Shown here: piece by piece, positions 1,675 through 4,028 of the stretch
Numbering within the stretch: position 1 is the stretch's first letter
Layout of the letters: each line of letters begins with the position of its first letter
From: Haloferula helveola
Lineage (GTDB): Bacteria > Verrucomicrobiota > Verrucomicrobiia > Verrucomicrobiales > Akkermansiaceae
Assembly (NCBI RefSeq): GCF_037076345.1
Contig: NZ_AP024702.1
Location: 4,092,001-4,156,000, forward strand
DNA length: 64,000 nt
Direction: 5' to 3'
Notes under the pieces: generated by a model
The model's input: the letters and a program-made list of their open reading frames with translations, nothing else
Told to the model about the DNA's origin: nothing
The model's database searches: none
Program-made: the position numbers and the translations under genes

Positions 1675-2728
1675 ATCGTTCCGCAAGGGACACTGATCTT
1701 TGACAGAACGGGAGTGCGGGAGAGGCCTTCGGGCAAGGAACGCGCTCAGGATGAGTCCGGACGAAAGTTCGGAGAATGGTCGGGATGAACTGACGTTCCC
1801 GGCCCCTTGGAAACTGCCGATTTTCGAATCATGGTGGGTCCGAGGCCAATGTCACCGGCTTCCCCGGGAAGGGTCGTTCCTTTCCGCAATCAAACGACTG
1901 GGAAGTCAGGCGGTGAGCGACGCCAGCGCGGTCCGGCCAGGACCGGCGGGCACAACCAGTCGCGAAGCCGAGTTACGCCGGAGCCTCAAGGTTGATCGAG
2001 GCAAGGGCGGACACAGTCGGTCGTAAGACCGGACGTTGCTACTGTGAGTCAGTGTGGTGGAAATGGAGTCCCGCGACCGCGGACGAAACAATCGAAATGG
2101 TCGCGGAATCCGGACGGCGTCGCAACCGGTCGGAGAAAAAGGGACCCAGCCATCGCGGAATGAGTGCTCCGCAAGGAAGGCGCCGGGTAATCGGTGATGA
2201 CCTGAGGGGGACAATAAGGTCCGAATCAGCGGGAGGCACCGGGAAACGGGGCCGTCCGCCTGGGAAAGTGAAATGCAATGTGAGGGTTAAGGGACAAGAC
2301 CCGTCACCCGGGGCAAACGATCTCGCGCAAGCGGGATGCCGACCTCGGGAGGAAAAAGGAGGGAGGATCCGTTCTCAGCGGATGCTTCAGCCGAAGTTCG
2401 GAGAACCAGCGCCGGCAGGCGTCAAAGCTCCGGGCCAAGAAGTCCCGCCCAAGAAACCGGCGATGGTGACATCCCGGTCGGCTCCGCCGCGGAGCCGGAA
2501 AGGAATGCGATTCGTCCTCGCAGACCGGTGCGGCGTCGGGGAACTGGCAGCCAACGAAGCTCGACGGGTGGAGTTGCGCGCCAAATGTCAGTCAACCGGG
2601 GAAAGAGAACGTGGCGAGTTCCCACTCCCCTCCTTTCTTTTGCCGCTCCCGAGTGGGGGAGGTAGGAAAGGATGGATCGATGATCCGGCATAAGGCCCTT
2701 CGGAGGGAAACTTCCGAAGGGCCTTTTT
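1675..2728 (+). ncRNA. Candidate large structured non-coding RNA (about 1.05 kb)
   Basis: No credible protein gene lies here: the long frames are low-complexity, Arg/Gly/Pro/Ser-rich, open on both strands and unlike any family. The plus strand is purine-rich and dense in short perfect hairpins with stable loops. Examples are 1678-1691 (GCAA), 1725-1734 (TTCG), 1983-2002, 2017-2032 (GTAA, 6 bp), 2071-2106 (8-bp stem), 2168-2177 (GCAA), 2199-2221, 2320-2337 (7-bp stem, GCAA), 2367-2383, 2385-2396, 2409-2422, 2479-2497 (7 bp) and 2632-2671. It ends at a canonical terminator (2692-2728). I looked for RNase P, tmRNA, SRP, 6S, rRNA and group I/II intron hallmarks and found none. Bounds are set by the possible promoter and the terminator. 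The case rests on structure and lack of coding signal. Confidence 0.55.
2692..2728 (+). terminator. Strong intrinsic terminator ending the ncRNA candidate
   Basis: A 12-bp perfect stem (2693-2704 with 2713-2724, GGCCCTTCGGA type) closes a short purine loop and is followed directly by a T5 run (2724-2728). It is oriented to end plus-strand transcription from 1.7-2.7 kb. The only gene downstream is on the opposite strand. Confidence 0.9.
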
Positions 2729-2861: not shown

Positions 2862-4028
2862 TTACAGCACCCGCGCCCAGATCACCTTGAGGTAGCGGGA
2901 CTCGGGGTAGTTCGAGAGGGTCGGGTGATCGGGGCCGGCACCGGTGCGGTCGAAGATCTGCAGGCGCTGCTGCTGTTTGTGCACGGCGGTGGTAACGAGC
3001 TTTTCGAACTCGAACTCGTTCACCAGCCCGGAGCATGAGCAGGTGACGAGCAGGCCGCCGGGCTTCACCAACTGGACCGCAAGGCGGTTGAGGTCGTTGT
3101 ATTTGCCACGGCCCCGTTCGTCGTCGCGGCCCGTCACGAACTTCGGCGGGTCGGCGAGGACCACGTCCCACTGGCGGCCGTTGTCGATCATCGTCCGCGC
3201 CCAGGTGAAGGCGTCGGCGTGGGTGAACTTGATCTTCGCTCCGTTGATGTTGGCGTTCCGCTTGGCCATCGCCACGGCGGTTTCATCGAGGTCGACCGCC
3301 GTGACCTCTTCGGCGCCGGCGAGCGCGGCATGCACGCTGAAGCCGCCGGTGTAACAGCAGAGATCGAGCATCGTGCGCCCCTTGGCCAGCTCGGCGAGCT
3401 TGCGACGGTTGTCGCGTTGGTCGCAGAAGAAGCCGGTCTTGTGGCCTTCCGCGAAGTCAACCTCGAAGGTCACGCCGTGCTCGACGATCTTGATCTTCCG
3501 GATGCCCGGTGTGGCGAGCGGGTGGTCGACCATCGGGATCCGCTCGATCCGCGCGAGGGCAGGATCGACGCGGATGTGGGTCCGTTCGGTGCCGAACGCC
3601 TCGTGCATCGCCGGGATCCATGAGTCGAGTCGCTGCCACGCTCCAAGACTTGTGATTTCCAGGGAGAGGATGTCCCCGAAACGGTCGGCCACGATCCCCG
3701 GAAGCCGGTCGGCATCGCCATGGATGCAGCGGTAGGCGTCGGTCGCGTCGTCGAGATGGAAAAGTCCGCGGCGCAGGTCGGCGGCCTGTCGGATGGCATC
3801 GAGAAAGAAGCCCTCGTCGATCGGCTCGCTGCCGTGACGGACGATCCGCAGCGGCATGTTGGACTTCGGGTTCCAAAGGCCCCAACCGAAGGTCTCGCCG
3901 TCCTTGCCGAGCACCTCGACCAGGTCGCCGGGGCGGGCGTCCGAGGACGCCTCGCCGATCATTTTGGGCCAGATCGACGGGTGGAACGAGACGGTCTTGA
4001 TCGAGACGGTGGGCACGGGGCGGAGCAT
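2862..4028 (-). CDS. Class I SAM-dependent rRNA methyltransferase, RlmI-like
   Basis: 388 residues. An N-terminal PUA-like domain (about 1-85) is followed by an inserted domain and a Rossmann methyltransferase domain. Motifs: CDQRDNR (about 202-208), SAM-binding DLCCYTGGFS (about 222-231) and catalytic-site ADPPKF (about 292-297), all typical of the RlmI/YccW group that makes 5-methylcytosine in 23S rRNA (C1962 in E. coli). A C-S-C-S-G stretch near residue 330 fits the C5-methyltransferase cysteine. Length matches the family (about 396). Substrate position is inferred from E. coli. It stands alone on the minus strand, divergent from the next membrane-protein gene. Confidence 0.88.
   Translation of the reverse strand: MLRPVPTVSIKTVSFHPSIWPKMIGEASSDARPGDLVEVLGKDGETFGWGLWNPKSNMPLRIVRHGSEPIDEGFFLDAIRQAADLRRGLFHLDDATDAYRCIHGDADRLPGIVADRFGDILSLEITSLGAWQRLDSWIPAMHEAFGTERTHIRVDPALARIERIPMVDHPLATPGIRKIKIVEHGVTFEVDFAEGHKTGFFCDQRDNRRKLAELAKGRTMLDLCCYTGGFSVHAALAGAEEVTAVDLDETAVAMAKRNANINGAKIKFTHADAFTWARTMIDNGRQWDVVLADPPKFVTGRDDERGRGKYNDLNRLAVQLVKPGGLLVTCSCSGLVNEFEFEKLVTTAVHKQQQRLQIFDRTGAGPDHPTLSNYPESRYLKVIWARVL

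Follow-up and report, generated by a model that had tools for sequence, protein, structure and literature searches.

The structured, non-coding stretch at positions 1675–2728 of the window (the whole 64,000-nucleotide piece of DNA analysed here) is, with near certainty, a divergent MISL RNA (Rfam RF03079) and not an orphan. The locus is a new, divergent copy of an already known family. It is probably a single-copy gene, running from its own promoter to its own terminator, and its product would be a stand-alone transcript, about 1.05 kb long, that acts in trans. An earlier note on this DNA had placed and described the stretch correctly, as a non-coding, highly structured and free-standing transcription unit, and had proposed an orphan large structured RNA. 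The large structured RNA, bounded by a promoter and a terminator of its own, stands. The orphan status falls with the match to RF03079, a hit to a known Rfam family being among the findings that the note itself had named as refuting it. A conserved cluster of DnaA-box-like sites lies at the promoter, which gives a handle on when and why MISL is made.

Identity and distribution of the MISL copy

At the Rfam gathering thresholds, no family is listed for the whole 64 kb. In a covariance-model scan with an E-value threshold, a known family was found: RF03079 matches positions 1749–2622 of the plus strand over its full model (1–751 of 751), with 267.6 bits and an E-value of 3.7e-80. The gathering cut-off of this family is 274.6 bits, 7 bits above the window copy, which is thus missed by a default Rfam scan; this copy illustrates how real MISL RNAs are lost at the cut-off. 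The matched part extends over 874 nt for a model of 751 positions, and the MISL consensus helices are mostly present in the alignment. The runner-up among the Rfam matches, at an E-value of 0.054, is far under its own cut-off. ROOL, GOLLD and OLE, to which the stretch had been likened, are absent among the ten Rfam matches obtained in the window at E-values up to 10, so that the likeness holds for size and ornateness and not for their models. An orphan class unrelated to known families, which would agree with the lack of any window match at the gathering cut-off, can practically be discarded in view of the full-length match, sub-threshold as it is, and of congeneric homologues above the threshold.

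The genome of the window contains one MISL copy. MISL was found in five of the 18 genomes of the genus, with 295.6, 291.3 and 280.4 bits for the three copies above the cut-off, and 273.5 and 267.6 bits for the two below it, the last one being the window copy. The same five genomes were retrieved by blastn among 57 genomes, the four congeners carrying MISL at 69–77% identity. Matches to MISL were obtained in 67 of the 285 genomes of the class, 62 of them above the cut-off, and two genomes have two copies. The phylum sample, which overlaps with the class sample, yielded 30 matching genomes out of 387, two of which lie outside the class, and none of 14 control genomes matches. A scan of sequence collections relied on a loose pattern, with 2 of 96 viral stretches and 16 of 119 genome stretches true by nhmmer among the matches listed; at least 16 contigs with MISL were confirmed in this way, 15 with titles of the Verrucomicrobia lineage and one entitled bacterium, again among the matches listed. 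The patchy occurrence of MISL, even among genomes of one genus, means that many lineages can do without it. The comparisons described below involve 70 loci, namely 67 of the 69 places of the class search and three congeners; the two left out (G247 and G311) lie at contig ends.

MISL does not look like a phage or plasmid element, which was rejected because blastn gave no match in the GenBank phage collection (two MISL queries) or in the GenBank plasmid collection (one query). Among the 96 viral pattern matches, two IMG/VR contigs of ssRNA phages (Leviviricetes-like) carry MISL at their 5′ end in sense orientation: L122 at 1–813 and L207 at 1–481. A second viral pattern, which retrieved 34 stretches, found MISL in none beyond these two. 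L122 combines MISL at 543 bits over the full model with a replicase (3e-42) and a weak match to a maturation protein (22.1 bits for a cut-off of 25). L207 has a maturation protein (7e-28) and an incomplete MISL that scores under the gathering cut-off; the short length of this contig would leave no room for a replicase to be seen. Of 17 relatives inspected at their 5′ ends, nine start at, or within, a short hairpin made of a C-run and a G-run; such a hairpin comes directly after MISL in L122. Among the best 80 of 295 replicase relatives, one is L122 itself and the other 79, many of them 5′-incomplete, are devoid of MISL. Besides, the MISL parts of L122 and L207 resemble two different host families, at 83% and 86% (in the listed matches, of which the eight longest were considered for either contig). 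The post-MISL hairpin, the 79 relatives devoid of MISL and the two host families indicate that both contigs are most likely chimeras; their junctions lie at different MISL positions. Otherwise, they would represent RNA phages that have taken up an ornate RNA of their host, which looks quite improbable. Because RNA-phage sequences come from RNA, the two contigs nevertheless provide an indirect hint of MISL transcription, on the strand that was predicted.

Extent and architecture of the gene

The upstream neighbour is a gene of 132 amino acids at 1135–1533, which has no Pfam match at an E-value of 0.01, and its former description as ExbD-like found no support there. Downstream lies a convergent methyltransferase gene (2862–4028, minus strand; PF10672 at 3e-20). 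Further upstream, positions 19–1113 hold the 3′ portion of a gene for a DUF3516 (PF12029) protein, a relative of which adjoins MISL in G013, in G017 and, in another family, in G160; it was not seen beside MISL in G014 and G001. A survey of the neighbours, made with a simple ORF caller and with some loci shortened by contig ends, found no conserved protein partner beside MISL among the 70 loci, the largest cluster of neighbours covering 13 of them. The gene names given to MISL neighbours were assigned by eye and are presumptive.

The stretch had been said to hold no plausible protein, and this is confirmed. The three plus-strand ORFs inside 1675–2728 have no Pfam match at an E-value of 0.01, and comparison with the four congeners revealed no consistent third-position excess of substitutions. 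Most indels within 1992–2634 have a length that cannot be divided by three (13 of 14, 14 of 15, 12 of 16 and 18 of 20 for the four congeners). A protein gene was thus rejected, with no Pfam match and no coding signal. The predicted fold of 1695–2634 reaches −415.7 kcal/mol, as compared with −389.8 ± 9.2 for shuffled sequences (z = −2.82), none of 20 shuffles being as stable.

Both ends of the gene extend beyond the Rfam model. The −35 box, TTGACG, is present at 1642–1647, where it had been proposed, and is retained as TTGAC[GCT] at the same place in the four congeners. It is followed by a weak −10-like sequence, TTTAGC(T), at about 1664–1670, and a −10-like sequence often precedes the 5′ motif of MISL at other loci. 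Two elements outside the model then come in succession: a 5′-terminal hairpin, GUUCC-GCAA-GGGAC (1678–1691), which has equivalents in congeners and in G248, and the conserved 5′ motif GATCTTTGACAGAAC (1695–1709), which emerged from the multi-locus comparison. In its family form, GUUC-N-UUGAAAGAAC, this motif was found by pattern at 67 of the 70 loci, and variants were placed by hand in the other three; it usually lies 35–70 nt before the Rfam model and farther in a few cases, such as L091 and L092. The P1 hairpin, GAGUGCG...CGCGCUC (1712–1747), is present in the centroid fold just before the model. It has no covariation support, the sole pair listed (1712–1745, E-value of 6.3) being two bases out of register.

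At the other end, the announced intrinsic terminator is found at 2692–2728, with a perfect stem from 2692 followed by five T at 2724–2728, and it is also seen in the fold. It was not listed by a consensus terminator scan of the window, as we think because its stem uses part of the T run. Terminator-like hairpins, defined by a perfect stem and a T-rich tail, occur at most 160 nt after MISL at 50 of the 70 loci and in 11 of 133 control stretches. Transcription would start at about 1675–1678 and end at about 2728. Given its own conserved 5′ end and terminator, and a next gene that is convergent in the window, MISL is best read from sequence as a stand-alone transcription unit and not as a leader.

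The other hairpins previously pointed out are also present, with a GCAA loop at 2320–2337, a GTAA loop at 2018–2031 and a UUCG loop at about 1725–1734. Covariation was analysed with 62 of the 70 loci, including the window copy; those dropped were one incomplete locus (L100), five near-duplicates (L049, L101, L102, L103 and L105) and two second copies (L077 and L093). All column pairs were tested with a home-made test following the R-scape idea, in which the substitutions of the tree are replayed in shuffled columns; with 12 null alignments, the E-values are coarse. Eighteen pairs beat this tree-based null at an E-value of 0.05, each being canonical in at least 88% of the sequences. Among the 49 pairs with E-values up to 10, nine are non-canonical at the 80% level. 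The hairpin at 2320–2337 is one of the best covarying helices, since three of its pairs (2320–2337, 2321–2336 and 2323–2334) exceed the highest null score, as does pair 2608–2620 in the 3′-terminal hairpin of the MISL body, GAAC...GUUC (2607–2621).

Three of the significant pairs sit in long-range helices that are absent as such from the structure line of RF03079, a format unable to carry pseudoknots. Each of these three pairs exceeds the highest null score. They are pair 2036–2278 in pseudoknot PK1 (2034–2039 with 2275–2280), pair 1877–1894 in the loop helix PK2 (1873–1878 with 1893–1898) and pair 2264–2374 in pseudoknot PK4 (2260–2266 with the loop 2372–2378). These helices were also probed by swapping partners between families. 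Five Watson–Crick pairs are formed with the own partner in 52 of 62 sequences for PK1 (the segments used hold five of its six pairs), in 57 of 62 for PK2 and in 38 of 61 for PK4, against means of 17.4, 20.5 and 10.5, respectively, with partners from other families. A further putative pseudoknot, PK3 (loop 2485–2490 with 2530–2535), is the least certain. Its own partner gives four pairs in 49 of 61 sequences against a mean of 25.8, and five pairs in 33 of 61 against 14.7; at six pairs it does no better than swapped ones (7 against 6.3). Its in-register pair 2489–2531 has an E-value of 1.4, and the significant pair 2485–2530 is off the helix register. Outside any placed helix, the lone pair 1850–2011 displays two-sided covariation (T-A in 32 and A-T in 27 of 62 sequences, E-value of 0.08) and is a possible tertiary contact. 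Compared with the Rfam core by itself, the mapped ends and the long-range helices offer an improved construct for probing and structural studies.

These features also bear on whether the window copy is a decayed pseudogene, as its lowest score among the five copies of the genus might suggest. This is very improbable, since its long-range helices still pair through two-sided changes (CGUUGC/GCAAUG versus GGUUGC/GCAACC) and the promoter-like sequence, the 5′ motif and the terminator are all present.

DnaA-box-like sites upstream of MISL

Two sites in tandem, TTGTTCACA (1586–1594) and TTATTCACA (1597–1605), lie 11 bp apart on the plus strand of the window, their distances to the conserved 5′ motif downstream being 109 and 98 bp. 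The 9-mer sites at MISL were judged to be DnaA-box-like against the DnaA-box consensus. In the 5.68 Mb genome of the window, the 11-bp tandem occurs once, before MISL; TTATTCACA occurs six times (its reversed control twice), once at MISL and three times in one intergenic cluster of 340 bp at about 4.42 Mb.

The pattern TTRTNCAC, which was chosen after viewing the MISL upstream sequences (the genome-wide and dnaA checks came later), is present in the 160 bp upstream of 63 of the 70 MISL loci, versus 12 of 566 other ORF upstream regions of the same loci. The seven loci where it is absent upstream, by the pattern used, include three of the four f22 copies. All 23 families have it in at least one MISL locus, and with one locus per family it is found in 21 of 23, versus a mean of 1.2 and a maximum of 6 upon shuffling. 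At 51 of the 70 loci, the 9-mer core TTATTCAC occurs in the 160 bp leading up to the 5′ motif, with a density of 6.15 per kb versus 0.025 per kb elsewhere in the same loci (244-fold). The site counts at MISL are 68 for TTATTCAC, 33 for TTGTTCAC, 5 for TTATCCAC, 3 for TTATACAC and 6 for TTATGCAC, position 5 being mostly T. Paired sites are often 11 bp apart, clusters comprise up to five boxes, and in the region counted the boxes sit at about −49 to −158 from the 5′ motif. The two genomes with two MISL copies (G203 and G304) each have one copy (L093, L077) without upstream TTRTNCAC.

Such sites are also encountered at dnaA. In 30 genomes, 23 of which have MISL, the 11-bp tandem occurs 11 times (its reversed control is never found): six times before MISL, three times before dnaA and twice elsewhere. 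The dnaA tandems, with the same T form, belong to three genera that also carry MISL (G104, G160 and G237), the dnaA gene being identified by Pfam in G104 and, in G160 and G237, from its reading frame together with its ATP-binding motif. TTRTNCAC lies near the dnaA start in seven of 16 genomes chosen regardless of the box, and in 10 of 19 when three box-selected ones are added, two loci of this survey (G147 and G074) being without upstream sequence. In the genus of the window, no box was found within the 171–342 nt before the dnaA frame in any of five genomes, nor, for the genome of the window itself, within the 2.2 kb upstream of dnaA; the MISL carriers G107 and G267 have no box at dnaA either. 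In several families, these sequences point to a DnaA box as the most likely identity of the upstream site. For the genus of the window, since no box was found at its dnaA, this reading would be borrowed from the other families, and a control of MISL by DnaA, plausible in general, is weakest there.

The sites may be bound by DnaA, in which case the RNA level would vary with the replication cycle or with how much DnaA is in its active form. To this step we give somewhat less than an even chance, because three of the ten boxed dnaA loci were box-selected and because the window's own dnaA has no box within 2.2 kb. Such binding would couple MISL synthesis to the replication state. The RNA, with a predicted length of about 1.05 kb between its own promoter and its own terminator, would act in trans with its body held by the long-range helices. 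Since no cluster of neighbours is common to more than 13 of the 70 loci, the folded RNA is tentatively viewed as a trans-acting scaffold that either assembles with itself or joins a protein whose gene lies at another place. A broader and still speculative extension places MISL within a DnaA regulatory circuit, as a replication-coupled RNA. In bacteria of the Verrucomicrobia type at large, DnaA would then control a large architectural RNA that serves in the cell cycle or in replicating or segregating the chromosome.

Another regulator might instead use a TTATTCAC-like site, in which case MISL would answer some other signal. This is conceivable but doubtful: it would fit with the predominance of T at position 5 at MISL, where TTATTCAC and TTGTTCAC dominate, and with the dnaA regions of the window's genus, where no box was found, whereas the same T form and the 11-bp tandem precede dnaA in three MISL-carrying genera. 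E. coli datA is a DnaA-titrating element, and the boxes at MISL could likewise be a titrating or replication-related DNA element, or even an origin, merely located beside an RNA gene and not acting as a promoter switch. In line with this proposal, up to five boxes are clustered upstream of MISL, the same boxes are met at dnaA, and the genome has an intergenic cluster of four boxes at another place. We regard the proposal as unlikely given the bounded distance to the 5′ motif and the repeated 11-bp spacing. As for an origin at MISL, it is unsupported by the sampled GC skew (19 stretches, with one lone positive sample at 1.21 Mb), which turns durably at 2.41–2.71 and 5.11–5.41 Mb and not near MISL at 4.09 Mb.

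Two box clusters away from MISL were observed in the course of these searches. In the window's own genome, four TTATTCAC boxes lie in one intergenic stretch of 340 bp (4,419,602–4,419,940; L487, 1402–1740), next to a frame that we take by eye to be hisH-like. It is a candidate origin or DnaA-titration site, and the sampled GC skew puts no origin there. In G074, where MISL was not found, five TTRTTCAC boxes (L118, 1500–1619) adjoin a presumably ribD-like frame, also named by eye, and form another candidate origin or titration site.

Comparison with known systems

The source paper of the MISL RNA is reportedly Weinberg et al. 2017. In a limited literature search, to which this source paper did not belong, no function of MISL was found in print, nor any report of the association with DnaA boxes or of the conserved MISL ends. 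MISL is used as a test molecule in Ribonanza (PMC10925082). As compared with RF03079, the window copy is just under the cut-off, its 5′ motif and terminator lie outside the model, and its genus has its own 5′ double-hairpin variant.

With regard to DnaA-regulated promoters, the TTRTTCACA-type sites at MISL have the form observed near dnaA in 10 of the 19 genomes. The differences are that the presumed target at MISL is a non-coding RNA and that no box was found at dnaA in the window's genus.

As for large RNAs, ROOL and GOLLD are described in phages and prophages (PMC12286853), whereas the MISL queries had no blastn match in the GenBank phage and plasmid collections. The window copy matches none of the OLE, ROOL and GOLLD models, and MISL is nonetheless, like these three, a large and ornate bacterial RNA. 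ROOL is described (PMC12286853) as having multiple pseudoknots and no identified protein partner.
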